Part shown: in pieces, positions 11,264 through 31,849 of the stretch
Position numbering within the stretch: position 1 is the stretch's first letter
How the letters are laid out: each line of letters opens with the position of its first letter
Origin: Candidatus Helarchaeota ASGARD archaeon Hel_GB_B
Lineage (GTDB): Archaea > Asgardarchaeota > Lokiarchaeia > Helarchaeales > HEL-GB-B
DNA: 36,736 nucleotides
Assembly: GCA_005191425.1 (NCBI GenBank)
Contig: SUPR01000029.1
Coordinates: 1 to 36,736, forward strand
Direction of reading: 5' to 3'
The notes under the pieces: model-generated
Seen by the model: only the letters and a program-made list of their open reading frames with translations
What the model was told of the DNA's origin: nothing
Databases searched by the model: none
Made by a program: the position numbers and the translations under genes

Positions 11264-12244
11264 TTATGAATTAAAAATGTAATGATCAATCCGCTTTTGC
11301 TTTATTTTTAAATCTTTGAATCCTTTATTTAACCTGGCTAAACCTCTTCGCACTCTATTTATAGAAAAATTCTTCTCTAATAAATATTCCTTAATAGCCA
11401 AAATATTTGGATATTGAAAATAAACATCAAATTTTGAGGTTATTGGTTTCAAGAATAGGTTTCTAATTTTATTAGCATCAAATTCGTTAAATTCGTAGTC
11501 CTTTCTCATGGTCTCAATATTACCATATTTCTTTATCATTTTTAATGATGTTTTAGGGCCAAATCCTTCGAATCCTGGATGATAATCATTTCCCATTAAG
11601 ATAATGATATCAATCAATTGGTTAAAAGAAATATCTAATTTTGTAAGTACTTTATTCAAAGAGATTTGCTGTAAAGTATTAGTCTTAAAGTTCAATTTTC
11701 TATAAATCTTTGGACATCCAAATATTAAGCAATCATAATCTTCAGAAATAACTCCATATGCCTGTTGCTCTTTAACAAGGCGCACCGCTTGAGCTTCTCC
11801 CTCACTTGGTGCTCTAAATACCGGAACTCCGAACATTCGTATAAATTTAATTAAATCTTCAATTATATATTTATATAGGAAGAATGAATCTTTAAAAACC
11901 TTTAACTTACTTCCATTTCCACCTAAACTATTATATTTTTTCCATGCATTTGACAACCTCTTAATTTTATAGTAATTATATGGTCTTTTTTCTCTTGGTG
12001 GAATTCCATCAAAGATAAAAATTGGTTTAATTTTTCGTTCGATTAAATTTATAATAAAATAAAAGAAACCATAGATATGAGAGACTGGATTTCCATGATA
12101 ATCATAAAAAATATCTTGAGAATTTTTTATTTTTGTTATATATTTAAATAATAAGTTAGTTGCGTCAATAACAATCGTCTTATGTGAAATATCACTAAAA
12201 TTTATTGTTTCTGAAATTACAAGTTCTTTTAATTTAAGACCCAA
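11264..12244 (-). CDS. fen: Flap endonuclease 1 (FEN1/XPG family)
   Basis: 326 aa; TIVIDATNLLFKY, PIFIFDGIPP, APSEGEAQAVRLV, VISEDYDCLIFG, MGNDYHPGFEGFGPKTSLKMIKKYG; C-terminal QKRIDHYIF resembles a PIP box. Confidence 0.95.
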   Translation of the reverse strand: MGLKLKELVISETINFSDISHKTIVIDATNLLFKYITKIKNSQDIFYDYHGNPVSHIYGFFYFIINLIERKIKPIFIFDGIPPREKRPYNYYKIKRLSNAWKKYNSLGGNGSKLKVFKDSFFLYKYIIEDLIKFIRMFGVPVFRAPSEGEAQAVRLVKEQQAYGVISEDYDCLIFGCPKIYRKLNFKTNTLQQISLNKVLTKLDISFNQLIDIIILMGNDYHPGFEGFGPKTSLKMIKKYGNIETMRKDYEFNEFDANKIRNLFLKPITSKFDVYFQYPNILAIKEYLLEKNFSINRVRRGLARLNKGFKDLKIKQKRIDHYIFNS

Positions 12245-12394
12245 ATTTTTTCCACCTTAAAGTATAAAATTCATTCCTATTTTTTAATTATTAATTTATT
12301 ATTTAGGTATATTATATACATATATTTTAGAATCTGGTTAATAATTAAGCATTTTATAAATACTATAATTCTAATATCTGAAAATTCAATTTCT

Positions 12395-13168
12395 TTAAAC
12401 ATGATATAATTCACTACATGCGGATATATTTCTTATAATTTTATATAAAACAAATGACGGTAATATTTCAAATTCAACATGGGCAAATGCATTGCTAAAT
12501 ATCGACTTCATTATTAAAAGGTTAGTATCAATAATATTGTAAACTTTTTGTATATTTTTTTCATTTAGATTACCTTTTAATTTATAAAAACACCCGTATA
12601 AAATTTCAGTTTTCCATTTTTCCATTCTCGAAGGGATATTATCATGAAAATTTAAGAATAATTCAGGAAAATCATCAGCCCATTGTAAATATCTGTCATT
12701 ATTATTGTTAATTTCATTAACTGAAACAAAAGAATAATCATAAATTCTAAAAAAACAGAGATTATTATCGGCCATAGACCGAATAAATTTTTTAAGATTA
12801 CTCTGTATACCTAATGGAATTGATGCAATCCTGAAAATAGCTAAAGCAGATAAAGTTTTCCCATTATCTAATAATATAATGTGGTCATTTTCAATATTAT
12901 TTTTTAGGCGATAGAGTTTAGGTAATCTTGTAGGATTAATTAGCAAAACCCTTTTGTTTTTAATGAATTTTTTATCAATCTTGAAAAAATAAATTAATAG
13001 AATTATCATTGCTATTGAGAAGCCAAAAATAACATATATTATTGCTAATATTGGTAAATTAATAGATGAGATAAATAAAAAATAAAATATTATAGATAAA
13101 TACATAATACCAGTAATTAAAAATTTATTTTTAAAAACAAATCCAGCTATTTTTTCGAGAAATTTCAA
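12395..13168 (-). CDS. Two-TM protein homologous to the N-terminal module of the 2417-4894 HerA-like protein
   Basis: 257 aa; shared pattern: [IL]DNG.....L.[LI]F[KR]I...F[VI]R and W[KR]T.I[IL][FY]G........LNE; same TM-then-soluble topology. Confidence 0.75.
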   Translation of the reverse strand: MKFLEKIAGFVFKNKFLITGIMYLSIIFYFLFISSINLPILAIIYVIFGFSIAMIILLIYFFKIDKKFIKNKRVLLINPTRLPKLYRLKNNIENDHIILLDNGKTLSALAIFRIASIPLGIQSNLKKFIRSMADNNLCFFRIYDYSFVSVNEINNNNDRYLQWADDFPELFLNFHDNIPSRMEKWKTEILYGCFYKLKGNLNEKNIQKVYNIIDTNLLIMKSIFSNAFAHVEFEILPSFVLYKIIRNISACSELYHV

Positions 13169-13186
13169 TCTTATTCACTCCTTTCT

Positions 13187-13699
13187 TTATTTGATTAAAA
13201 ATTCAATTAGCCCAATAATGATATAAAAAATATTCCAAGCGATAATTATACCGTCATTTTGAAAAACCATCGGGTAGAAGCACATTCTCACAATTAAAAA
13301 TGTCATAAATCCCACCCAAAAAATTATCCAGGCAAGAAATATCACTTGCTTTTTTGTTAAAGAAAATTTATCTGAAACAAATAAATTGTATTGAAAAGAA
13401 TTGACATTTTTTTTACTACCATCAATAGAAATTATATCCGGAAGTTCTTTTGAAAGTTCCAACAAGATATTAACATTATCTTCTAGTTCTTTTATTTCAT
13501 CTGAAGATAAATTATTGTTAAAAATTGTGTCAAAATTAAAATCAATTTCATTCATTATGGTCTTAAAAGATAAAGCATTTGAAATTATTTCATTTGTATT
13601 ATTTTTTCTTATCAATAAATCCCAAATCACTACAATTGAAATTATTACTCCAATAATAACCGGCCAAAACGAAATAAAAAAATTGATAATTAAATCCAT
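13187..13699 (-). CDS. Membrane protein (N-terminal TM, helical middle, C-terminal TM helices)
   Basis: 170-aa intact ORF; FWPVIIGVIISIVVIWDLLI, VIFLAWIIFWVGFMTFLIV, AWNIFYIIIGLIEFLI. Confidence 0.75.
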   Translation of the reverse strand: MDLIINFFISFWPVIIGVIISIVVIWDLLIRKNNTNEIISNALSFKTIMNEIDFNFDTIFNNNLSSDEIKELEDNVNILLELSKELPDIISIDGSKKNVNSFQYNLFVSDKFSLTKKQVIFLAWIIFWVGFMTFLIVRMCFYPMVFQNDGIIIAWNIFYIIIGLIEFLIK

Positions 13700-13708
13700 A
13701 ATAACACC

Positions 13709-14134
13709 CTAATTTTCAAAATCAAATAATTCAGATGAAAAGAAATCTTCTAAATCACAATTCACCAATTCAGATTCAATTTTTCTTCTAATAATTTTGG
13801 TAATTTCGGGATTTGGCCCAATAATATAAACACAAACAAGGTCATTATTTAAAATAACATTTTTCGAGTTAGAATCATTGACCGAAATTATAGCATTTTT
13901 GAAGTAGAAAGTATCATAAATTCTTTTTGCACCGATAAATTTACTTGGAATTATGTTATTTATTAATAATATTTTCTGATTTTTAGTTATATATAATAAT
14001 TCAGATTCTTTTCTTCTTGAATAATATTTAGATCTGGCTAATCTAACATCTTTAGGAAGAAAATTTATGAGTCTAAAGTATAAATAGAAAATTATTCCGA
14101 CAATTATAACTCCAATCAGTAAAATCTCAATCAT
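13709..14134 (-). CDS. Single-TM protein with soluble C-terminal domain
   Basis: 141-aa intact ORF; N-terminal IEILLIGVIIVGIIFYLYF. Confidence 0.75.
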   Translation of the reverse strand: MIEILLIGVIIVGIIFYLYFRLINFLPKDVRLARSKYYSRRKESELLYITKNQKILLINNIIPSKFIGAKRIYDTFYFKNAIISVNDSNSKNVILNNDLVCVYIIGPNPEITKIIRRKIESELVNCDLEDFFSSELFDFEN

Positions 14135-14233
14135 AATTGACTACCAACAAATTTATAAATGAAATTTTTGACCTTTGCATTTTTGGTTTAAAATCTCCAG
14201 GTAAATTGAACTATTTAAAAATCTTTTGAATGA

Positions 14234-16897
14234 GTGAATAAATTGATCAAGTACGATAAGATCATTAAAGATATGTTAGAAAAAGTTGGTATCGAAAATT
14301 TACGGCCAATTCAGAAGCAGTCGGTGCCATTTATATTTGGGAAAAAGCCAAGAAACTTATTAATAGTGGCACCCAGTGCCAGTGGAAAAACTTTAATTGG
14401 GGAGCTTGCGTTAATGAATGCTGCATTAAACGGAATGAAAGGTTTTTATTTAGTCCCATTAAAATCTATAGCAAATGAAAAATTTATAGATTTCTTCAAA
14501 AAATATAGTGCTAATATTTCGATTGCAATCACTACGGGGGATTTTGATATCTCTATGGAAGAATTGGAAAAAAAACAAATAATAATAACAACATATGAGC
14601 GATTTGATTCAATTATTAGAAAAAAACCTTCTTGGTTTAAAAGGATTTTTGTAGTAGTTATTGATGAAATCCATAATATTGGCGATAGAACTCGTGGTAT
14701 AAAACTTGAGAGCCTTTTAACCCGACTTATGACTTATAATCAAATTCAAATTATTGGACTATCGGCTACAATTAAAAATCCAGAGGACTTAGCAAGCTGG
14801 TTAAATGCGGAATTAATAATAAACAAAGAAAGACCCGCAGAATTGCGATATAAAATTCTTATCTCAGAAAATAAATATGAAACCTTAAAAAATTTAATAC
14901 CAAAATTGGTCGAAAAAAAAGCACAAATACTAATTTTTACTAGAACTCGAAAAGAGTCAGAAAAATTAGCAAAAAATCTATCAAAAGTTGTCAAAAAATA
15001 CCTCACTTTTGATGAATTTCAGGAATTGGATTCATTTTCTAAAAATATTATGGAGTCATCACTTGATTTTCAGACAATTACTGGCGGTGTTGGCTATCAC
15101 CATGCCGGCTTAGATCATAATTCAAGAATTTTAGTTGAAAAATTGTTTAATAATTCATTAATTAAAGTCATTTGTTGTACTACTACATTGTCTTCCGGGA
15201 TAAATACGCCTGCAAATATTGTAATAATAAAGGATTTTAAAATGTACAATAATATTTCAAACAGACCAGAACTTTTGGATAAAAATAAATTCCATCAAAT
15301 TTCTGGAAGAGCTGGAAGATTTGAAAAAAATATTGGTTTTGCAATTATTATGGTATCAAATGAAGAGGAAGCAAATAAAGTAAAGGAATATTATTTTAAA
15401 GAAATTAATTTAAATAATGATAAATATCATAAAAAAAGCGTTTTAAAAGCTAAATATGAAAATATTTTTAGTTCATTACCTGAAAATAGATATGCTTTAA
15501 TCGATCAAACATTGGTTTTTATTCATCACCATGCTGAAGGAATAACTAGAAATGATTTAATTAGATTTTTTAAAAAGACATTCTTTTATTTTCAATTAAA
15601 AAGCCATGGAAATGAAGATTATTTAATAGAACGACTTGCGTTTGATAAAAAGAATATAGAAGCTGTCTTAAGAGCTCATTTAGTTAACCCCAATAACATT
15701 ATACCTGCGGAAGTAAAGGCTATACATATATTAGAAGATAGATTTGAAGGTATTGTTATTACTAATCATGAAAAAATTGATAGAATTTGTAGTTTTTCTA
15801 ATAATTCCCGATACTGCACTTGCTCCACTTTTAAAAATACAGGTTTTTGTATTCATTTATATCATTTAGCTATTGCAGCATTGAAAAAATATCGGATTTC
15901 ATCGGAAGATATCATTTTAAGTTCATTTAATGAAAATTTTATTTTAGATTATCTTCTTAATAACAATCTAATTTATATCGAAAATGAGCGGTTTAAGTGT
16001 ACAGAATATGGAAATTTAATTGTGAATCTATTTATAGACTCGCGTATGTTTCTATTTATTAGAAATAGATTGAAATTTACTACTTGTACTTATGATTTTT
16101 TAGATTTGATTAAAAAATTAACGGAATTAAAGTTTGAAAAATCTCTGAGTTATCATTATCTTTCAGTATTAAATGAAATAATAAATACTGACGAAAATAT
16201 CGATATTAATAAATTTTTAAAAAAGATGAGTACATCTGAAATTGGAATTGGTGACCTTGAGAGTTTTATAGAGGCATGTAGATGGGTAACTAATGTGATA
16301 ATAAAAGTTGCAGAAAATACAATTGAAGGAAACGAAAAAATCATTAATATTGGAAAAATGGTCTTGGATAAAATAAATAGACCATTACCAGATGAAGAAA
16401 TGATGTATAAAATAGTCCAAAGCTCAATGGGTTCGAATATTGGCATTATAAAAAGTAACGATGAAGATATGAAACGAATATTCTGTAAAAAAGTCAAATA
16501 TTTTTTAGTATTACATAAAATAAGCGGAGTCCCAATTTATTCATATAATTTCTCTCTTAATGACCTTGACTCGTCATTAATATCTGGTTATTTGACAGCA
16601 ATTAGTAGTTTCGGGCTAGAAATATCTGGAGGAATTCAAACAAACGTGAAAAAAATGGAATATGATAAAATGAAAATTTTGATACAAGAAGGAGAAAACA
16701 TTCGAGCTACTATTATCTTGGAAGAAGGATATGATGAATGGGTTTTAGAGCGACTTAAAATTTTTATTGAAAATGTTGAGAATAAATTTACAAATTTACA
16801 GAACTGGAATGGAGATTTAAACATGTTTCGGAATATCGGAAAAATGTTTAATGAAGTATTTGGTTATAATCTAATTGAAGACCCGCCAAATATTTAA
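14234..16897 (+). CDS. Ski2/Hel308-like superfamily 2 helicase with SWIM zinc finger and C-terminal longin/roadblock-like domain
   Basis: 887 aa, GTG start; LLIVAPSASGKTLIGE (Walker A), VVVIDEIHNI (DEIH), GLSATI, VGYHHAGL, HQISGRAGRF; SWIM CxCx(n)CxH = YCTCSTFKNTGFCIHLYHL; C-terminal YFLVLHKISGVPIYSYNF...SSLISGYLTAISSFG. Confidence 0.92.
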   Translation: MNKLIKYDKIIKDMLEKVGIENLRPIQKQSVPFIFGKKPRNLLIVAPSASGKTLIGELALMNAALNGMKGFYLVPLKSIANEKFIDFFKKYSANISIAITTGDFDISMEELEKKQIIITTYERFDSIIRKKPSWFKRIFVVVIDEIHNIGDRTRGIKLESLLTRLMTYNQIQIIGLSATIKNPEDLASWLNAELIINKERPAELRYKILISENKYETLKNLIPKLVEKKAQILIFTRTRKESEKLAKNLSKVVKKYLTFDEFQELDSFSKNIMESSLDFQTITGGVGYHHAGLDHNSRILVEKLFNNSLIKVICCTTTLSSGINTPANIVIIKDFKMYNNISNRPELLDKNKFHQISGRAGRFEKNIGFAIIMVSNEEEANKVKEYYFKEINLNNDKYHKKSVLKAKYENIFSSLPENRYALIDQTLVFIHHHAEGITRNDLIRFFKKTFFYFQLKSHGNEDYLIERLAFDKKNIEAVLRAHLVNPNNIIPAEVKAIHILEDRFEGIVITNHEKIDRICSFSNNSRYCTCSTFKNTGFCIHLYHLAIAALKKYRISSEDIILSSFNENFILDYLLNNNLIYIENERFKCTEYGNLIVNLFIDSRMFLFIRNRLKFTTCTYDFLDLIKKLTELKFEKSLSYHYLSVLNEIINTDENIDINKFLKKMSTSEIGIGDLESFIEACRWVTNVIIKVAENTIEGNEKIINIGKMVLDKINRPLPDEEMMYKIVQSSMGSNIGIIKSNDEDMKRIFCKKVKYFLVLHKISGVPIYSYNFSLNDLDSSLISGYLTAISSFGLEISGGIQTNVKKMEYDKMKILIQEGENIRATIILEEGYDEWVLERLKIFIENVENKFTNLQNWNGDLNMFRNIGKMFNEVFGYNLIEDPPNI

Positions 16898-16900
16898 TAT

Positions 16901-18859
16901 TTACAAATTAATTTTGTTATAAAACATTTTTACAATTCTTCCAACAAGTCCCTCATATTTTTCGATTTTTATAATCCTGTCTTGTATCCAATTACTTAAT
17001 AATTTAAAATATTTTTTATAAAAAAATCTTTCATCTAAAAATATTATTATTCCTTTATCATCAAGTTTTCTGATAGGTCTTCCTGCTGATTGATTTGCTT
17101 TTCTTAAAGCAGGGATATAATACGCATATTCCAGTCCTCGTTCTTCACCAAATAAGTTTTGATAATATTTAATCAATTTTTTTATTGAATACGAAATTTT
17201 TGCAAAAGGTATGCCAACTATGACTACAGTACTCATTTCCTTACCTGGAAAATCTACACCCTCAGAGTTTCTACCACCAGATGCACCAATTAAAAACCCT
17301 CTCATACCCTTGTAAGGTAATTTCTTATATTCAGTGATCATAGCTTCGTTCTCTTTACTATTCATACTTTTAGATTCCATGAAAAATTTGATCCCCAATT
17401 CCTCTATTTTTTCTTTTAGCCCTTGTTCTAAAAGTCCATTAATTACTGAATAAGATGCACAGAAAACCCCTGTATTATATTTTGTGTTTTTAGCTGCTTC
17501 AACACAACAATTCATGATAAACCTATAATTCTCTTCAGTTCGGTCTTCAAATTTTAGAGTGATATCTTGTACTCCTATTATTGAAACATTTTCAAATGGG
17601 AATGGCGATGGTAGTATTCGTTCTTTAGTATTATCAAGGGTCATCCCGCAAATTTCTCGGAATGCTCGTATCGGCGCTAAAGTACCAGAAATTATCACCA
17701 AATTTCTTGCATTAAATAAATCATTTAAAATGGGTCTAACATCAAGTGTTTTAATCACAAACTCAACATTTATTTTATTTTTAACTTTAGATACTCTTAA
17801 AATATGAATATAGTCTGGTCTTAAATAATTTTGATAGATAAATTGTAAAAAATGTGCTGTTTTATATAGGCTAGACCTAGGAAGTTTATTATTTTTAAGC
17901 ATTAATTCTCGAACTTGTACCCCTTTTTCTATTAAATTATTGAAAAAATTCTCAATATTGTCTGTTTTTATTTGAGAGAAAATATTTTTTAATGTACTTT
18001 TTCTAACAGCTATTTCGATAGTTTCACCCTCTTTTGGGTCGTATGCCATCCCAGTAGTTTCAATAAATGATTTAATGTCCTTAAGAAATTGTATTGATGG
18101 GACATCATCGTCTAATAGTAATCCAATTAATTCATCTAAAGCTCTTTTAACTGATCTGGGTGTGATTTGTTGAGTCCCTGCTTCTAATGCCACATCAATT
18201 ATATTATGCCCTTCATCAAATACAATTATGCAATCAGAAATTAATTTATCGATATCTTTGAAAAAAATTTGCCTGATAAATGGGTGAATTAGATAATTGA
18301 ATGTCGTAATAATTACATCAGTCTCTTTCAATAGTCTTTTTGCCAGATAATAAGGACATATATTATATCTTACGCCAATAGCAATTAATTCTTCACTTTT
18401 ACCTGTTTTTAAATTATATTCAAAATTTTGTAAATTGGTGAAATATTTACAACTTCCATTTTTTCGCAATTGGCTACAAAGATCTGTAATCTCCATTATT
18501 GTCCCTCTCCTGACTTCTTCATTAAGACACATCTCGGTTTTCCCTTTTAATGTTAAACCTCTAACCACATAACCTTGATCACTACCTTTTTTGTTTATTT
18601 CCTCTAATTCAGCAATAACCCTATCCATTTGGGTATGCGTCCGAGTAGCATATATCATAGTTAAATTGTTTTGCTTGATAATTGGTATAATAGCAGATAA
18701 AGTTGTTATTGTTTTACCAGAACCATTTGCAGCTTCTATGAGAATGAATTTATGTGGTAATTTTAAATGGTCATATATTTCATTCATTAATAGACCTTGT
18801 CCAGGCCTAAGTGAATTATAGGGAAAAAACTTTCTAATTGAAGAAGGAATTGATATCAT
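16901..18859 (-). CDS. XPD/Rad3-family Fe-S DNA helicase
   Basis: 652 aa; EAANGSGKTITTLSA; four Fe-S-type cysteines (MCLNEE, LCSQL, SCKYF, ICPYYLA); IIVFDEGHNIID; QSAGRPIRKLDDKG. Confidence 0.95.
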   Translation of the reverse strand: MISIPSSIRKFFPYNSLRPGQGLLMNEIYDHLKLPHKFILIEAANGSGKTITTLSAIIPIIKQNNLTMIYATRTHTQMDRVIAELEEINKKGSDQGYVVRGLTLKGKTEMCLNEEVRRGTIMEITDLCSQLRKNGSCKYFTNLQNFEYNLKTGKSEELIAIGVRYNICPYYLAKRLLKETDVIITTFNYLIHPFIRQIFFKDIDKLISDCIIVFDEGHNIIDVALEAGTQQITPRSVKRALDELIGLLLDDDVPSIQFLKDIKSFIETTGMAYDPKEGETIEIAVRKSTLKNIFSQIKTDNIENFFNNLIEKGVQVRELMLKNNKLPRSSLYKTAHFLQFIYQNYLRPDYIHILRVSKVKNKINVEFVIKTLDVRPILNDLFNARNLVIISGTLAPIRAFREICGMTLDNTKERILPSPFPFENVSIIGVQDITLKFEDRTEENYRFIMNCCVEAAKNTKYNTGVFCASYSVINGLLEQGLKEKIEELGIKFFMESKSMNSKENEAMITEYKKLPYKGMRGFLIGASGGRNSEGVDFPGKEMSTVVIVGIPFAKISYSIKKLIKYYQNLFGEERGLEYAYYIPALRKANQSAGRPIRKLDDKGIIIFLDERFFYKKYFKLLSNWIQDRIIKIEKYEGLVGRIVKMFYNKINL

Positions 18860-19629
18860 TTATTATAAACCCCTTTTTTATAGTTATATAGAAGTTTTCC
18901 AGTTAATAGACTAACAAGTATACCAATTACAATTGAAATTATCATATAATTATAATTTATAAAAAATAAATTTATAAGATTAGAACGAGCAAATCCTGAA
19001 TAATTAGAATTGATTATTGTACAAGTTAATATCGGCTCAGATACTAGATTTTCTCTTATTGAAACTTCATATTTCAACAATATTTTAGAATTTATATCAT
19101 AATAATAGGAAATAATCAGTGCTTGAGTAAAAACTGTTATAATATGTGTATAGACTTGACATAAAATCAACCCGATTTTATTTCCGAAATCAATCACTTC
19201 TAACTGGGATTTCTGAAATAAAACTTCTGATGGGGAAAGATTTGTAGCCAATATTATTTGTGGTTGAAAATCCATTAATATCCACTGCTGATGGTCATTA
19301 TCTTGGTCTTTACCAGTTTCTGGATCTATATAATATGTGCTACTTTTTATATATTCGAAAAAATTTAATCTATAGTTTTCAGTATATGTGACAATTATAA
19401 CCTGACTAGAAATATTAAATTGAACTTCGATATTCGATTGATATTGACCTTTTAAATAGAAGGAATCAGGACTAATCTCTATCAAATTTCCATTAACTAT
19501 ATATGATACATTAAAATTGCCTAAAGTTGCTGAATAAGTTATTTTTGAATAGAAAATTAACATATTAAATAAACCAAAAATAGATAAAAGAATAATAAAA
19601 AAAATACTAGCCCTATTTTTAAAATTCAT
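18856..19629 (-). CDS. Membrane-anchored extracytoplasmic protein of unknown function
   Basis: 257 aa; N-terminal SIFFIILLSIFGLFNMLIFY and C-terminal YMIISIVIGILVSLLTGKLLYNY; 4-bp overlap with xpd-like gene. Confidence 0.8.
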   Translation of the reverse strand: MNFKNRASIFFIILLSIFGLFNMLIFYSKITYSATLGNFNVSYIVNGNLIEISPDSFYLKGQYQSNIEVQFNISSQVIIVTYTENYRLNFFEYIKSSTYYIDPETGKDQDNDHQQWILMDFQPQIILATNLSPSEVLFQKSQLEVIDFGNKIGLILCQVYTHIITVFTQALIISYYYDINSKILLKYEVSIRENLVSEPILTCTIINSNYSGFARSNLINLFFINYNYMIISIVIGILVSLLTGKLLYNYKKGVYNK

Positions 19630-19653
19630 CTGCTCTCACAATAATGAAATTTT

Positions 19654-20751
19654 TTACGAGCGTTTTCTTCGTACTATCTTTTTAGTTTGTGGGACTTCTT
19701 TTTCAACTGTATTAATTTGCCTTTCTGTTGATGGATTTTTATTCATTTTGGTATCGGATTGTTTTATTGTATTTATTTTAACAGGTTTTACACCTAAATC
19801 ATAATATCCAGTATCTCGTAATACAAGTACAACTTCACTTTTTGGTAAATCTACGGCTTTTTCAACTTTAAATTTACGTTCTCCTTTTGCTGAACTTTTG
19901 ATTGTAACTTGGATTCTGATTTCCGATTCATGTCCAATTACATTTCCCATTGAATGTTTAATTCCAGCGCCATAGCCCGAAGGGTCGCCTGTTGCTTGAT
20001 TTGTAATTACAGCAACAATGTTATATAATTTAGCAAATTTTTTAATTTCATGAAGTATTTGATTGGCTTTTTGTTGTCGCTCGGGTATTAATTGCCTTTG
20101 TGCACCATATTCTGACCTAAAATGCGTAGCAATTGAGTCAAGTACTACTAATTTAGCACCCGTTAATTCTATTTGCGTTCCTAATTGTTGAGAACACATA
20201 TATCGTAATGCATCAGAATTAGCTGGAACTGCCCGAGAAATTCCTTTAATAACTGCATTACCATCTAGACCAAACCTGGGCGCTATCTCTCTAATTCTTT
20301 TTAATGATAAAGAATTTTCTGCATCAATAAATACAGTACCCCCACCAAGTCCTCCTTTTGATTTTGGCAAAGCAGCAGTACATATCAATTGATGTAGCAT
20401 ATTTGATTTTCCGGTACCCTCAGGACCCCAAAATTCATACAATCTTTGAGTAGACAAACCCCCACCTAATATTTCATCAAAAGTTTTACAGCCGGTCGTT
20501 AATATTTCTCTTTTATTATATTCTTCTAATAATTCGTCTCCTGTCTTAAATTTAAGACCAAGTACCCCATCTGACTGTTCAGCCGCAGATCTAATAATTT
20601 TTTTTGCAACAGCTTCTGTAATTCCATCAATTGCAGCTAATTCACTAGGCCTCGCAGTTGCTATTGATTCTATAGTTCTAAAACCATTATCAATTAGTTT
20701 CTGGGCAGTAGTAGCTCCAATTCCATCCAATCTTTCTAAATCTGAACTCAA
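19654..20751 (-). CDS. radA: DNA repair and recombination protein RadA
   Basis: 365 aa; N-terminal HhH LDGIGATTAQKLIDNGF; Walker A GPEGTGKS; LVVLDSIATHFRSEYGAQRQLIPERQQKANQ; ITNQATGDPS. Confidence 0.96.
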   Translation of the reverse strand: MSSDLERLDGIGATTAQKLIDNGFRTIESIATARPSELAAIDGITEAVAKKIIRSAAEQSDGVLGLKFKTGDELLEEYNKREILTTGCKTFDEILGGGLSTQRLYEFWGPEGTGKSNMLHQLICTAALPKSKGGLGGGTVFIDAENSLSLKRIREIAPRFGLDGNAVIKGISRAVPANSDALRYMCSQQLGTQIELTGAKLVVLDSIATHFRSEYGAQRQLIPERQQKANQILHEIKKFAKLYNIVAVITNQATGDPSGYGAGIKHSMGNVIGHESEIRIQVTIKSSAKGERKFKVEKAVDLPKSEVVLVLRDTGYYDLGVKPVKINTIKQSDTKMNKNPSTERQINTVEKEVPQTKKIVRRKRS

Positions 20752-21279
20752 TTATAAAATCACCTATTTCCTTTGATTAATTTTAAGCGGGTAAAAAAAT
20801 TTGTTTTTAAATGTTTCGATTAAGTGTTAAACTATATTTACAGACTTGGATAATATTTTCTAATTGAAAAAAGCGAAAAATAAAACTATTTTAAATAGAA
20901 ATCTTCTAAAATTTAATTATAAATTTATATTGCTTTTTTTATATATATTATTCAATAAAATTCTTAAAAAATTCTGAAATCTAAGATACATTAGATCTAT
21001 TTTTTTAAAAAAGTTATAGATTAATTATAAAACTAATTATTTTCTACAAATCTAAAAATTTTTTACAATTAGCCCAAATCTTCTTATCTTATATCCTCTC
21101 ATAATTGATTTTTTTATAAAAGTAAGGTGTGCCTATAAATTTATAACCAAAATTTAATCGGAATTAAATAATCTTTTTAATATTTTATTTGTAGATCAAA
21201 ACTTTTTTCTCAAATTAAATTTTTTATTTCAGAGGTTTTTGGCAAAACTTTATAATATTTCAAATTTAATTTTCAAAAA

Positions 21280-22704
21280 ATGACCTCAAAAACACATGTT
21301 TGTCTAATTCAATGCGATTATCCTAAAGACCATAGTTTTATTATTAAAGATATTATTTTTCCACCATTAGGATTAGAGTATTTAGCTGCAAATATTGGGG
21401 ATTTAGCTGAAATTAAGATTTTTGATAATAGATTTCCCGAATATAACTTAAAAAATCTTAAAAAAGAATTTGAAAATTTTCACCCAGATATTGTAGGGAT
21501 AAGTGTAAATTTCTCCAATCAAATTTATCATGCAAATGCTATAGCTAAAATTGCAAAAGATTTTGGAGCTAAAGTATTAATGGGTGGTTGGCATGCCACT
21601 GCAGTACCTGAGGACACGTTATCATTTCCATGGACTGACCTTGTTATTCGTGGTGAAGGAGAATCTGCTCTGAGAAACCTGATTATAAAAGGTAGTCCTT
21701 CTGACATAAAAGGGATTTCTTATAAAAAAAATGGAAAAATAATTCACAATCCTGACCAAGAATTGTTAGATTTAAATTCATCTAATCCTCCTGCCCGAAA
21801 TTATAGGCCTAAATTCGCTAAAAAATATTATAACTTTTTTGGTGTTCCGGTTGATTCGATGGAAACGAGCAGAGGATGTCCATATAGATGTAAATTTTGT
21901 AATATACATAATTTTTATCACCATAAATATAGAACACGCTCAATTCGTCAAATCATCCAGGATTTAAATCAAATTAATGAATCAGTTAAATTAGTATATA
22001 TTATTGATGACAATTTTACTGCATATAGAAGTCATGTAATCGAAGTATGTAATGCAATAATTAAAAGAAATATAAAAAAAGCATTTATGAGTACTTCACG
22101 CCTAGATCAAGTTGTAAAATACCCGGAAATTTACGAATTAATGGCAAAAGCTGGGTTTATTTTTACTTTTGTAGGAATTGAAAGCTTTTCCAATAAAACC
22201 TTAAAAAGTTTAAACAAACAGCTTGAATTGAAACAAATTAGAAAAGGTATAAAAATTCTGCATGATTTAGGGTTTATTATTGAAGGAAATATTATATTGG
22301 GAGCAAATTATAACGATACAAAAAAGGATTTAGAATCAACATTGGAAATAGCTAAAAGTCTAGACATCGATATACCGACCTTCTCTTTACTTACACCTTA
22401 TCCTATGACAGACCTCTGGGATGAAGTCAATGAAAAAGGGCTTCTTTTATCGGGGATTGACTGGCACAAATTCAACTGGAATAACCCAATTATAAAATAT
22501 CCTCATTTGTCTCCTGAAGATTTGAAATATTATCTAAATAAAGCATATTTCGAGGTCAGACGATTTAAAAATCCATTAAATAAATTTGTTAATATTCTCA
22601 GAGCTAGAGGGCTGTCTTTCTTTATTTCTACTTTTCTAACTCAAGGTGGAATCAAATCTCTAATACATTTTATTAAAAGAATATATCCTGACTTTTTGAA
22701 ATGA
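21280..22704 (+). CDS. B12-binding-domain radical SAM protein
   Basis: 474 aa; N-terminal Rossmann-like B12-binding fold (VGISVNFSNQ...VLMGGWHATAVPEDTL...IRGEGE); CxxxCxxC in SRGCPYRCKFCNIH. Confidence 0.93.
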   Translation: MTSKTHVCLIQCDYPKDHSFIIKDIIFPPLGLEYLAANIGDLAEIKIFDNRFPEYNLKNLKKEFENFHPDIVGISVNFSNQIYHANAIAKIAKDFGAKVLMGGWHATAVPEDTLSFPWTDLVIRGEGESALRNLIIKGSPSDIKGISYKKNGKIIHNPDQELLDLNSSNPPARNYRPKFAKKYYNFFGVPVDSMETSRGCPYRCKFCNIHNFYHHKYRTRSIRQIIQDLNQINESVKLVYIIDDNFTAYRSHVIEVCNAIIKRNIKKAFMSTSRLDQVVKYPEIYELMAKAGFIFTFVGIESFSNKTLKSLNKQLELKQIRKGIKILHDLGFIIEGNIILGANYNDTKKDLESTLEIAKSLDIDIPTFSLLTPYPMTDLWDEVNEKGLLLSGIDWHKFNWNNPIIKYPHLSPEDLKYYLNKAYFEVRRFKNPLNKFVNILRARGLSFFISTFLTQGGIKSLIHFIKRIYPDFLK

Positions 22705-22948
22705 AATTTTATTGTTGTCGAGATTATTTTCTTTTTTCTAAATTATTTTTATGAGCGTATCCGCATAGTAATTAATAAAATTTCTTCTAAATCTTACTAA
22801 TTATTCCATTTTAATTATAATTAAAATTTCTGATCTTCTACTCATGATTTTTTTACATTCCATTATATTTTTAAATGGAATTTTTCACCTTTTAAAATTA
22901 TTATTTAATCATAAATGAAAATATTATCCAAGAAGGACTTGTAAAAAT

Positions 22949-23659
22949 ATGAATGATAATAAAAGAAGGGCATCTTTAAATTTCTTGACACTAAAAAGCG
23001 GACTGGATGGATTGGATAGGCAACTAAGAAATGGTTTTAGCCCAGGAATAATTCACATTTATGGCCCCCCTAATACTGGCAAATCTAATTTTGCAATGCA
23101 ACTTGTATTAAATGCGATTACTACTTATGATTCTGAACCAATTTGGATTGATACAAATAATAATTTTGAATTTAGAAGACTTATCCAAATGACTGGAAAT
23201 AATATAAGAATATTGAGAAATTTCAAATATTTAAATCCTATAAATTACGATGAATTTAAAATTTTGATCGAAAATATCCCAAAAATTATAGATAATAAAA
23301 CAATGGTGCTTGTAATTGATCCCATTACTTATTTCTATAGATTAAATGTGAATTTAAATAATTGGTTCGGCTTAAAACGAGATTTAATTAAAATTCTTGG
23401 AAAATTTATTGGTATCTCTGTTAAAAATCATTTAATAATTATATTAGTCAATCAAATAAAAGGTCATGAAATGAAATTAGAAGCAGTGTGTCAGGATATT
23501 CTAGAATTATATTCAAAATATTCATTACTTTTTGAGAATAAAAATGGCTTAACTATTACTCTTCGTAAATTACGTAATATAAAACTCAATAAGAAATTTA
23601 AGTTTAAAATATCAAACAATGGACTTTCGGATTTTAGCACAAAAATAGGAATTGATTAA
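22949..23659 (+). CDS. RadB-like RecA-superfamily ATPase
   Basis: 236 aa; SPGIIHIYGPPNTGKSNFAMQL; MVLVIDPITYFYR; IILVNQIKG; no HhH domain. Confidence 0.8.
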   Translation: MNDNKRRASLNFLTLKSGLDGLDRQLRNGFSPGIIHIYGPPNTGKSNFAMQLVLNAITTYDSEPIWIDTNNNFEFRRLIQMTGNNIRILRNFKYLNPINYDEFKILIENIPKIIDNKTMVLVIDPITYFYRLNVNLNNWFGLKRDLIKILGKFIGISVKNHLIIILVNQIKGHEMKLEAVCQDILELYSKYSLLFENKNGLTITLRKLRNIKLNKKFKFKISNNGLSDFSTKIGID

Positions 23660-26848: not shown

Positions 26849-29800
26849 ATGAGAATTTCAGTTAATAATCACAAGGTAAAATCTACGTTTTTAATATTAA
26901 TTTTGGCTTTTATGATATTTGTTAATTTGTTTGCTTTAAATTATATTATCCCATATTCTCGATATTCAAATAATAAATTAAACAGCAAAAAAAGCAATAA
27001 TTTCATTCAAAATAGTAATTCAGGATTTGTTGAAAGCCCAATTACTAATCCTAATTCATTATACGCTGAAAATAATACTAATGCTGTCTTAACCTGTAAT
27101 AAAACTCAAAGTTTTTTAGGTAGGACGCCGCACTTAATTAAAATAAATACTTATAACTGGAATTTTACGGCAACTAAATTAGGTTTTTTCGGTATCTCTC
27201 AAAATTATACATTAATAGTAGAAGATATTGCAGAAGACCATAATAACATTTTTCAGGAGGATGTTTATGATGAATGGGCACAAGGTTTCAGCTTAAATGC
27301 ACAATTCAGTAGGATAAATAAAATTGGACTTTATCTACAATATAGAGGAAAATATGATTTATGGGTAGAGGTGTATAATGCGACCGATACCGGAGATTTA
27401 TCTTTAGAACCGGATAAATTACTAATGAAATCTGAAACAGTTACTATTGAAAATCTATTCAATGCTAAAAGCGAGTTTATAATTTTTAATTTTCAAAGCA
27501 ATAAAATAATTAACAATTCAGAAACATGTGATAATACCTTTTTTATAATTCTAAATGGGACGAAAACCGGTGGTATATATGCATTTGTTGAATGGTGGTA
27601 TGCAGACGATGAAAAGGGAATAGACAACGGTGATGCATTGGAATATAAAAATAATAGATGGGAACTTAATTCGATTGATTATTATTCTATAATAAATTTA
27701 ACTCAACTGTTTTTCCCTGAAGATATTAATATGAAAATAAATGATTCAGCAACAACAACAATTGATGTATTAAATGGGGCTTCTCCTGGTCGGGGGCATG
27801 TTTCATTTTCTAAATTTATTCCAAACTCAAATGTTTCAATCTTAGTGACTTCGACTACTTTTGTTAATTTCATGGCAATTTCAAATACAAGATTGAGTAA
27901 TTCTTCACATGCATTAACTCAGTTTTATGCAGGTTCACAATTACCGACCGTAAATATAAACATAAGTCTTTATGCTCACTTTATCATTGATTCATTTGCA
28001 AAAAAATTGAATATAACATTACAAAAAAGCTGGAATGTTTCATTAATTAGTGCTAGCCAATTAATTCTTAGTAGTTCTGATTGGAAGCGTTCAGGGAATT
28101 ATTTATTAATAAATGCAAGCGATAATTTTTACGCAATAAAATGTATAGATCACAATTATATTGGTAATATTATACTAAATACCTATAAGGATTCTCTTTT
28201 TATAAATCATAATTTAACTGTTAATAATACATTTAGGATATATAATTCAATAACTCCCATTAATTTAACAATTTATAATTCGTCAGATAGACTAATCCAC
28301 ACTCAAAAGAAATTACCCAGTAATTATTACTGTTCATTTGACCCCTATAATATGACTTCAAATGGGATGTTTAAAATAATTTTAAAGTGGTTCAATGGCA
28401 CTTCAATAGGTTATAACTTTTCAAATATAGAGGTACAATACCACGCGGACTTTTATGAAATATCTGACAATATTAATCAATCAAAACCGTTTCAAGCTGG
28501 AGAATTGGTATTAGTAGACGCATTTTATAATAATACTGAATTAAACTGTGGTATATTAAATGCGTCCAGCGACATTTCTATTAATATGACAAGCAGAACT
28601 CAATACAATGTATCAGAATTTGGTGGTGGGTATTATAATATTACCATATATACAAACCAACTTACTTCAAAAAATTATACTTTAGTAATTTCTGCTCATA
28701 AAGTTGGATACGAGGAGTCAAATTTTTCGATAAGATTTCAGATCATTACTCATTTTAATGCTACAATGAATATCACAGGATATTATGGAAATGTATTTAG
28801 AAATGGGTCATGGTGGGTGCACCCAAATCCTTATTTTAGTGACAATACGCATAAAATTCAGATTATTTATAAGAACGGTACTGCGCCCTATGATGGAATT
28901 TATCCTGCAGCAATATATGCATATCCAAATTGGTCTTCAGATGTCTGGTATGGGAACCCTTTTGATACTTTTGGTCGATATGATATAACATTAGATACAA
29001 CAGGGCTCCACGAAGGCGATAAAGGTGAAATAACCATTATTGCAACATCAAATATGTTTGAAACAAAAGAGATAAGAATATTTTTCAAGATAGATGAAAT
29101 ACCCGAGAATTTATTATCATTTGATATAAATGGATTTGAGGAAATTACAGCTTATGAAGGTGAAACAATCCAAATTGCAGCAAGTTTTATTGACGATTTT
29201 CATGGGAAAGACATTGTGTTTGAAAATGATACAGAAGGTAATTTGACTTGGTACATACCCGGTACAACTGCAACGGGTCTAATGAGTAAAATAATCCACA
29301 CTTATATGGATTCAATTGAACTTCCTTCCTATAATATTACCGGAGGAGATTATAACATTACAATAAAAGCCCAAGCATTGCGAGATTATGCAACTAAGGA
29401 AGTTAATATATCACTTCATGTCTTGAATAAAGAGCCCACTAATATAAATATAACATATTATACTGAATCAGATGTCCGAATTGGGAAGCCATTATACATA
29501 TATTCTACTTTATCTTTTAGTAATGGGACCAGATTAAATTATAAAATGCTTGAATTTAACCTTACATATTTAAATAATACAATTATCATAGATTCAGTTA
29601 ACACAACGATATTAACAGATAGTAATGGTGTTGCTACTTATTTTATTTCTGAATTGCCTGACAATATAAATAAAATTCGGGTGAATTGCAGCTATTCAGG
29701 AACAGAAAAAATTGCAGAAACTAAAGGGTCTAGAATTATTAATGTACTGGACAAATATGTGACTTTTATTAATATTACTGCAGAATATTACAATGATATT

Positions 29801-31849
29801 AGAGTTGGAAGAAATATATCATTTCACGCTAACCTTACAAGCCTAGATTTCGGGCCTATGATAGGTACAAGCGTTATATTTAACATAACATATCTATTTT
29901 ATACAGGAAATAGCAGTTTACTTGTTTATAAATCATTTGGGACCAATGAAAATGGTACTGCCAGTTATAGCATTGAACATATTCCTGATGGTGTTAAGAA
30001 AATCTATATTTCAGTAAAATATTTAGGAACAAATACATATCATTCTTGCTCTGACTTTAAAAATTATTCCGTAAATAAGAAATTTAATACCTCTCTTGAA
30101 TTAATATCTGCACTCCCCCAAGAAGTTATGGTAGGTAATTATATCTTTTTAGAAGTTAAGTTGACTAACACTGAAAATGGCGTTCCAATCTCAAAAGCTA
30201 CCATTAATTTCAAAATTTTATTCGATAATGGCTATTCATTGACCCAAAAGTCCACCACATTAACTACGGGGATAGCAATATCAAACATTAAAATACCCAA
30301 TGAAGCGTCAAATGCACAATATTTTACTGTGTCTATTGATTATGAAGGTGATTATTCAATAGTAAATGCATCGTTTATTTCACATGCCCGGATAAATGTT
30401 TTAACACCAGTTCGATTATTTGTCCGTAATCTTCCATTTATTCTTACTGTAGTGGCAATTGGGGTAGCCTCAGTTCTTACTTATCAATTTACAATTAGAG
30501 CTCCTAGAATTAGACGAAAAATCCGTAGAATGAGAGAAGTTAATCAGAAATTTTCTGATATTTTGAATGTCCAACACCTGATGATTTTATATAAAGAAAC
30601 TGGAATAACAATCTATAACCATTCATTTCAAGAAAGAACTTTTGATCCCGACTTAATTTCTGGCTTTCTAACGGCTATTGCTTCATTTCAAACTGGCTCT
30701 CATATTAAAACAGGAAAAGATGCAATTACAAGCGGTTTTGAACTAACATATGCTAATTTTATTATTTTAGTTGAAGAAGGAAATTATACCAGAGTTGGAC
30801 TCATATTAGACCAAAAACCATCAAGTGAACTAAGACAGTCTTTAAGAAAATTTCTGAATTTATTTGAGAATAAATATGAAAAAGAATTAAAGCAGTTTTC
30901 TGGTTATATAAAGCCTTTTAAAAATTCTGGTAAACTAGTAGAACAAGTATTTGAAGCATCCTTGATTTGGCCACATAGAGTAAACCCAAATATTACAAGT
31001 GAAATGGAGAAAAATCTAACAAATTTCGAGAGCATGATTTTAACCTTAGCATTGACAATTCAAAAAGAAAAAAGCTTTTTTATGACCCCAGCATTGATTG
31101 AAGCAGTACTGGAAGTTAAAAAAACAAAAACTGAAGAAATTCTGGCAGCCTTCGATGACTTAAGAAAAAAGAATATCTTTATACCCTTTCCATTAGAGGA
31201 ATTGGCAAAAATTATTGAAGAAGATAAAGAAAAAAGTCAAATAGTTGATATTACAACAAAATTAGAGGATGATGAAGAAATAGTCCCCCCAATAAAAGGT
31301 GTCCCCAAAAAAGATATGGTATATTTAAATAAACATCTAAAATTAACGAATTATGTCTTCCAAAAATGGTTTTTAAATGAACTCTCAAAAACACCATTAC
31401 CTGAAATAACTAATTACATAAAGAAAATAATTAATAATTGGAAAAAGAATAAAGATGAAATTACATCATTAATGAATAAAGCAAAAAATTCCAAAGAAAA
31501 AGGCGACCTCGTTAGTGCAGTAGAAATATTCGACGAAGCTAAAAAATATGCCGAAGAAATTGGTCTTGAAGATAAAGCAACTGAAATTTCCAATAAAATC
31601 CATGAAACTCTTGAAATTATGAAAAATAATGTTCCATTAAAATATGAAAAATTAATTAATAAATTCCTAAACGAAATAAATGAAATTAATAAAAAAGCAG
31701 AAATTGAAGTCAATAATAAAAACTTCATCAATGTCTGTATTTTATATATCAAAGCAGCCCATTTATCGCTCCAAATTGGTGATAGCAAAACAGCCCAATT
31801 ATATCTTGATGAAATTGTAAAATATGAAAAAAATCTTGAAGACCTTTAA
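26849..31849 (+). CDS. Giant single-pass surface/receptor-like protein: Ig-like repeats, TM, cytoplasmic longin/roadblock-like domain, wHTH-like segment and C-terminal helical (TPR-like) repeats
   Basis: 1666 aa; signal/TM STFLILILAFMIFVNLFALNYI; Ig-like repeats NITYYTESDVRIGKPLYIYSTL..., NITAEYYNDIRVGRNISFHANL..., SALPQEVMVGNYIFLEVKL...; TM LPFILTVVAIGVASVLTYQF; HLMILYKETGITIYNHSF...DPDLISGFLTAIASF; C-terminal alpha-helical repeats. Confidence 0.92.
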   Translation: MRISVNNHKVKSTFLILILAFMIFVNLFALNYIIPYSRYSNNKLNSKKSNNFIQNSNSGFVESPITNPNSLYAENNTNAVLTCNKTQSFLGRTPHLIKINTYNWNFTATKLGFFGISQNYTLIVEDIAEDHNNIFQEDVYDEWAQGFSLNAQFSRINKIGLYLQYRGKYDLWVEVYNATDTGDLSLEPDKLLMKSETVTIENLFNAKSEFIIFNFQSNKIINNSETCDNTFFIILNGTKTGGIYAFVEWWYADDEKGIDNGDALEYKNNRWELNSIDYYSIINLTQLFFPEDINMKINDSATTTIDVLNGASPGRGHVSFSKFIPNSNVSILVTSTTFVNFMAISNTRLSNSSHALTQFYAGSQLPTVNINISLYAHFIIDSFAKKLNITLQKSWNVSLISASQLILSSSDWKRSGNYLLINASDNFYAIKCIDHNYIGNIILNTYKDSLFINHNLTVNNTFRIYNSITPINLTIYNSSDRLIHTQKKLPSNYYCSFDPYNMTSNGMFKIILKWFNGTSIGYNFSNIEVQYHADFYEISDNINQSKPFQAGELVLVDAFYNNTELNCGILNASSDISINMTSRTQYNVSEFGGGYYNITIYTNQLTSKNYTLVISAHKVGYEESNFSIRFQIITHFNATMNITGYYGNVFRNGSWWVHPNPYFSDNTHKIQIIYKNGTAPYDGIYPAAIYAYPNWSSDVWYGNPFDTFGRYDITLDTTGLHEGDKGEITIIATSNMFETKEIRIFFKIDEIPENLLSFDINGFEEITAYEGETIQIAASFIDDFHGKDIVFENDTEGNLTWYIPGTTATGLMSKIIHTYMDSIELPSYNITGGDYNITIKAQALRDYATKEVNISLHVLNKEPTNINITYYTESDVRIGKPLYIYSTLSFSNGTRLNYKMLEFNLTYLNNTIIIDSVNTTILTDSNGVATYFISELPDNINKIRVNCSYSGTEKIAETKGSRIINVLDKYVTFINITAEYYNDIRVGRNISFHANLTSLDFGPMIGTSVIFNITYLFYTGNSSLLVYKSFGTNENGTASYSIEHIPDGVKKIYISVKYLGTNTYHSCSDFKNYSVNKKFNTSLELISALPQEVMVGNYIFLEVKLTNTENGVPISKATINFKILFDNGYSLTQKSTTLTTGIAISNIKIPNEASNAQYFTVSIDYEGDYSIVNASFISHARINVLTPVRLFVRNLPFILTVVAIGVASVLTYQFTIRAPRIRRKIRRMREVNQKFSDILNVQHLMILYKETGITIYNHSFQERTFDPDLISGFLTAIASFQTGSHIKTGKDAITSGFELTYANFIILVEEGNYTRVGLILDQKPSSELRQSLRKFLNLFENKYEKELKQFSGYIKPFKNSGKLVEQVFEASLIWPHRVNPNITSEMEKNLTNFESMILTLALTIQKEKSFFMTPALIEAVLEVKKTKTEEILAAFDDLRKKNIFIPFPLEELAKIIEEDKEKSQIVDITTKLEDDEEIVPPIKGVPKKDMVYLNKHLKLTNYVFQKWFLNELSKTPLPEITNYIKKIINNWKKNKDEITSLMNKAKNSKEKGDLVSAVEIFDEAKKYAEEIGLEDKATEISNKIHETLEIMKNNVPLKYEKLINKFLNEINEINKKAEIEVNNKNFINVCILYIKAAHLSLQIGDSKTAQLYLDEIVKYEKNLEDL

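Follow-up and report, generated by a model that had tools for sequence, protein, structure and literature searches.

A giant single-pass membrane protein

The window, by which we mean the whole analysed stretch of 36,736 nucleotides, is contig 106 of a draft Helarchaeota genome of 3.54 Mb in 182 contigs. An open reading frame at 26849-31849 of its forward strand, on which all receptor and helicase features below lie, encodes a giant single-pass membrane protein of 1,666 amino acids whose layout recurs in its homologues. Hydropathy places a hydrophobic segment, a signal peptide or anchor, at residues 12-30 (26882-26938); full-length homologues have one at residues 1-19. It is followed by an ectodomain (26939-30421) rich in N-glycosylation sequons, 55 of which lie N-terminal of the transmembrane helix and 4 C-terminal of it. 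This ectodomain is 45% identical over 1,129 aa to that of a paralogue on contig C134 and 32% identical over 1,097 aa to that of Hel_GB_A. Its membrane-adjoining part is predicted to form three Ig-like beta-sandwich domains (29426-30415; AlphaFold pLDDT mostly 80-94), for which Foldseek matched complement/A2M proteins and a bacterial adhesin repeat (prob 1.00). The transmembrane helix, also from hydropathy (residues 1192-1210, 30422-30478), leads into a basic, positive-inside juxtamembrane stretch, RAPRIRRKIRRM (30479-30532), helical in the models, and then into the longin domain (residues 1229-1378, 30533-30982), supported by alignment, profile, model and Foldseek. In the predicted topology the longin sits about 40 aa below the membrane.

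The AlphaFold model of the C-terminal part (807 aa, residues 860-1666) comprises the three Ig-like sandwiches, a long transmembrane/juxtamembrane helix, the longin and a helical tail whose residues 1371-1525 have a pLDDT below 50. A TPR-like helix array (residues ~1488-1658, 31307-31819) is modelled with moderate confidence (pLDDT about 70-80 in parts), and the tails of the C134 paralogue (29% identity over 280 aa) and of the cytosolic protein L189 (25% over 289 aa) resemble it. Directly behind the longin lies a possible winged-helix region (30983-31186), 39% identical over 71 aa to the Hel_GB_A orthologue; for residues ~1380-1445 Pfam gave no match and the model pLDDT is below 50.

An earlier note on this DNA had described a giant Ig-like single-pass surface protein, and on this hydropathy, sequon distribution, the AlphaFold model and Foldseek agree. 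It had also seen wHTH-like and TPR-like helices in the tail: the TPR-like helices hold at the model's moderate confidence, and the winged helix is unproven. Pfam and NCBIfam gave no significant match for the receptor, and the Pfam search, the only one made for a SNARE coiled coil, returned no SNARE match.

A longin domain shared with a helicase

A second gene, at 14234-16897, encodes an 887-aa Hel308-like helicase of the Ski2 type with a SWIM-like CxC..CxH motif, assigned by Pfam, PDB and NCBIfam searches, and alignment and profile locate a further longin fused to its C-terminus (residues 742-886, 16457-16891). The cytoplasmic domain of the receptor aligns with helicase residues 752-881 at 45/133 identical (34%) and 78/133 similar positions (BLASTP E 2e-21; phmmer 62 bits). 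The Smith-Waterman score of 184 stands 29 SD above that of shuffled sequences (31 +/- 5.3, n=2,000, maximum 59), and a seven-sequence profile spans the whole domain in both proteins. The homology proposed in the earlier note is thus confirmed at the sequence level, and the domain does lie after the single transmembrane helix of the receptor; the segment quoted there, beginning HLMILYK, starts at nucleotide 30575 (residue 1243), within the full domain.

The helicase has the DEAD/Helicase_C core common to Hel308/Ski2-type helicases (best PDB match 2zj2, E 7e-77). It scores 250 against the 1,200-bit cut-off of the NCBIfam Hel308 equivalog and is therefore called Hel308-like here and not Hel308. 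It differs from Hel308 in that the longin replaces the C-terminal helix-hairpin-helix region; most class homologues show this region at their C-terminus, and the window helicase lacks it. A longin was found in 0/30 other helicase homologues (31 examined including the window's; one truncated at the 3' end). The homologues of G002 and G003, which are of the same taxonomic order, have 742-744 aa, belong to the same FEN1/RadB/RadA island and stop shortly before the position of the longin. The idea that the extra 140 aa of the homologues are a divergent longin was discarded: they end instead in a helix-hairpin-helix, or stop earlier.

Because none of these homologues carries a longin, those of the same island included, the fusion is either lineage-restricted or an artefact, and the sequences indicate that it is probably the former. 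An error of assembly or binning would fit with its being seen in one genome only, a draft of many contigs. We consider such an error very unlikely: the reading frame is continuous from helicase to longin across a short linker, the conserved longin residues are retained, and the islands of G002 and G003 have matching FEN1, RadB and RadA genes around the helicase.

Predicted fold of the domain

Asgard archaea are the group closest to eukaryotes, and the longin fold is used by eukaryotic trafficking proteins that handle small GTPase switches. An AlphaFold model was built from a four-row alignment of the two window domains, receptor and helicase, and two Hel_GB_A domains; its quality is limited by this number of sequences (pLDDT 72, pTM 0.68). 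The modelled topology is b1b2a1b3b4b5a2a3 (strand-strand-helix-strand-strand-strand-helix-helix). Its best PDB matches in Foldseek include AP-2 sigma (E 4e-5), SRX (9.5e-5) and Sec22b (1.5e-4), as well as zeta-COP and TRAPP, all at prob 1.00. Roadblock structures rank below these longins. A Roadblock/LC7 fold begins with a helix, followed by b-b-a-b-b-b-a, and has no third helix at the C-terminus; this identity was rejected, since two C-terminal helices are modelled, several paralogues begin at strand 1 and roadblocks rank lower.

In sequence searches the window domain itself matched no Pfam family, and a PDB sequence-profile search gave chance matches only. The paralogue C144 matched Sybindin (1.9e-4), Longin (8e-4) and Fuz_longin_1 (2.5e-3), all below the curated cut-offs. 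The lack of a match above cut-off lowers the claim to a sequence family, not the claim to the fold. The longin-like character given to the domain in the earlier note is thereby upheld: the predicted fold makes the cytosolic domain of the receptor a longin, and its paralogues add support from sequence. Fold and topology are common to the longins of TRAPP (Sybindin), Sec22b, SRX and the AP/COPI small subunits; unlike these, the receptor longin sits below the transmembrane helix of a giant Ig-like protein, and neither the SNARE motif nor the adaptor large subunit of the SNARE and adaptor longin proteins is seen.

Longins and small GTPases in the genome

The genome-wide census of the domain for which the earlier note had called yielded 41 copies in a profile search of the window's own genome (E <= 0.01), which also encodes about 42 Ras-type GTPases. 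The copies occur in three further giant membrane proteins, in a cytosolic relative whose tail is like that of the receptor, and in wHTH-longin, UFL1-like plus longin, multi-TM plus longin and longin-GTPase arrangements; in the last of these, the C131 paralogue, the longin is joined to an Arf/Ras GTPase. Two genes downstream of the closest cytosolic paralogue, C102_33157, there is a small GTPase gene in the same orientation. Longin and GTPase genes do not cluster above chance in this genome at 4 kb (6 observed, 4.3 expected), and MK-D1 is likewise reported to lack such clustering (PMC10933270). Excerpts of PMC4917890 and PMC10933270 report about 41 longin proteins in Lokiarchaeum, some of them fused to Arf-like GTPases, so that copy number, phylum and GTPase fusions are alike in the two genomes; neither giant receptors nor helicases that carry longins appear in these excerpts.

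Several loci are of separate interest. At G000:C56:45909-46858 a gap of 72 nt separates a Ras-type GTPase match from a longin match, both on one strand. Longin matches at G000:C102:20019-20342 and C107:32616-32927 have in-frame stops and are possibly decayed copies or split ORFs. The UFL1-like protein C160_19628 (L032, G000:C160:12500-27000) matches PF09743 (1.1e-10), PCI and DDRGK and carries a longin of the window subfamily; a similar wHTH-longin protein is found in Hel_GB_A (L094).

Distribution and gene neighbourhood of the receptor

A profile scan identified Ca. Helarchaeota Hel_GB_A as the nearest named relative genome. A query of transmembrane helix plus longin matched 52/61 genomes of the class at 1e-20, including 18/18 good ones, and 115/149 genomes of the phylum at 1e-10, including 42/46 good ones, part of these matches being without the transmembrane helix. 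Full-length homologues measure 1,337-3,031 aa and have an N-terminal hydrophobic segment and a giant ectodomain; most have one transmembrane helix shortly before the longin, which typically starts 32-47 aa behind it. Genomes outside the class contributed three further long proteins of this type. Judged by sequence, the architecture of hydrophobic N-terminus, Ig-like ectodomain, one transmembrane helix and longin is Asgard-wide.

The gene neighbourhood was sampled at 38 receptor loci from other genomes. An ATP-grasp gene lies upstream in 17/38, which are Lokiarchaea-like, with a P-type ATPase in 16 of those. At 10 of these 17 loci a roadblock-Ras GTPase gene (PF00071) stands beside the receptor orthologue; these loci span two families, between which the GTPases are about 40% identical, and Robl_LC7 matched one of the four tested. 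A RadA recombinase gene adjoins the receptor in 17/38 loci. The loci with this neighbourhood all fall within one orthologous receptor clade and do not count as independent cases. The block of P-type ATPase, roadblock-Ras GTPase, ATP-grasp, giant longin receptor and RadA is kept in Lokiarchaea-like genomes (L195, L196, L199, L201, L202, L208 and others). At the window receptor the P-type ATPase/ATP-grasp/GTPase block is absent and no GTPase gene is nearby; RadA is 6 kb away, which is proximity only.

By eye, proteins of Hel_GB_A, G002 and G003 (L092, L103, L105, L108, L113, L114) combine an appendage (ear)-like domain, a helical region and a C-terminal longin. Their Pfam appendage-like matches are weak, and they resemble ESCRT-related proteins (PMC10936438). 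The window receptor shares its domain repertoire with Asgard ESCRT-related proteins that contain longin, TPR, Ig-like and HTH/PCI domains (PMC10936438), and unlike them it crosses the membrane once and has its Ig-like part outside the cell; Pfam found no Vps28-C in it.

Discussion

We lean, by a little, towards reading the longin as the membrane-anchored module on the cytosolic side of giant Ig-like surface proteins, a family that is Asgard-wide, and as a putative docking platform for GTPases or other longins. The ectodomain would bind something outside the cell, in adhesion or sensing; the longin would dock or regulate a small GTPase at the membrane, either by itself or in a pair with a second longin or a roadblock subunit; and the helical tail may recruit further partners. 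GTPase docking or regulation, possibly through longin-longin or longin-roadblock pairing, is suggested because roadblock/longin platforms bind small GTPases (PMC10933270). The C131 fusion, the roughly 42 GTPases, the roadblock-Ras neighbours and the position of C102_33157 would favour it, and Asgard longin-GTPase fusions are known (PMC10933270, PMC4917890). Against it, there is no GTPase gene near the window receptor and no clustering beyond chance in its genome, the roadblock-GTPase neighbourhood is limited to one clade of non-independent orthologous loci, and the longin structure comes from a four-sequence prediction. Some longins act without GTPases, which also counts against docking. Dey et al. 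caution that longins by themselves are no proof of trafficking (PMC4917890).

A rather unlikely alternative has the receptor longin mainly dimerise with other longins, such as those on adaptor-like proteins in the cytosol that belong to its subfamily, in cargo-sorting complexes without direct GTPase control. Longins and roadblocks do form dimers (PMC10933270), and in Hel_GB_A and G002 closely related cytosolic proteins bear Ig-like/ear-like and helical domains, resembling adaptin-appendage/Vps28-C/longin proteins (PMC10936438); however, the ear and Vps28-C identities were assigned by eye, appendage-like Pfam matches are weak, and the GTPase fusion and neighbourhoods point to GTPases. The very long, sequon-rich Ig-like ectodomain and its match to a bacterial adhesin repeat could also suit a structural surface or S-layer-like adhesin whose longin merely anchors it to the cortex. 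That is less probable again, as the conserved longin and tail, the several paralogues per genome and the GTPase neighbours suggest more than anchoring.

The earlier note had further supposed a single signalling partner, common to receptor and helicase, that couples the envelope to DNA metabolism. The homology is real, both genes are on one contig and RadA lies beside one receptor clade; we nonetheless find this scarcely credible. In the longin tree the receptor copy groups with other receptors (97/93) and the helicase copy, weakly, with cytosolic proteins (84/72). Sister status of the two is rejected (AU p 0.0009), and a place for the helicase copy inside a wider receptor plus helicase clade is not (p 0.15). 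Since this helicase alone among the homologues examined has the fusion and the window domains are not sisters, the link is unsupported; with 41 copies in the genome and an Asgard-wide receptor, the longin is common in this lineage, so that sharing one is to be expected and implies no shared partner. A weaker association of the receptor with DNA survives in the RadA gene next to one receptor clade (17 loci), as proximity only. The helicase longin would then be a separate gain, restricted to its lineage, of this widely used module, and would probably provide the helicase with a longin or GTPase partner of its own.

Returning to the docking platform, it is conceivable, and we suggest it tentatively, that these proteins are an Asgard-own class of transmembrane receptors, Ig-like outside and longin inside, that signal via small GTPases, with a dedicated roadblock-Ras GTPase in Lokiarchaea, and possibly a precursor of eukaryotic surface-to-GTPase signalling. 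In one open-access full-text library we found no paper joining longin, Asgard and helicase, and, in its main texts, no description of the receptor under combinations of transmembrane and Ig-like. Asgard genomes encode dozens of longins and small GTPases. A conserved surface protein with a longin directly under the membrane, and in some lineages a roadblock-GTPase gene next door, offers a testable route from the cell exterior to the GTPase network, also in cultured Lokiarchaea.

Other features of the window

The helicase belongs to a DNA-repair island at 11264-23659, with FEN1-like, Hel308-like, XPD-like, RadA and RadB-like genes, parts of which are conserved in G002 and G003 (L190, L191). Its SWIM-like motif lies at 15785-15880 (residues ~518-548), and a class homologue (L124) has a similar one. 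At the contig end, positions 1-390 hold a repetitive coiled-coil ORF (MDKRFEQMQAQ repeats), with a similar repeat in L051.
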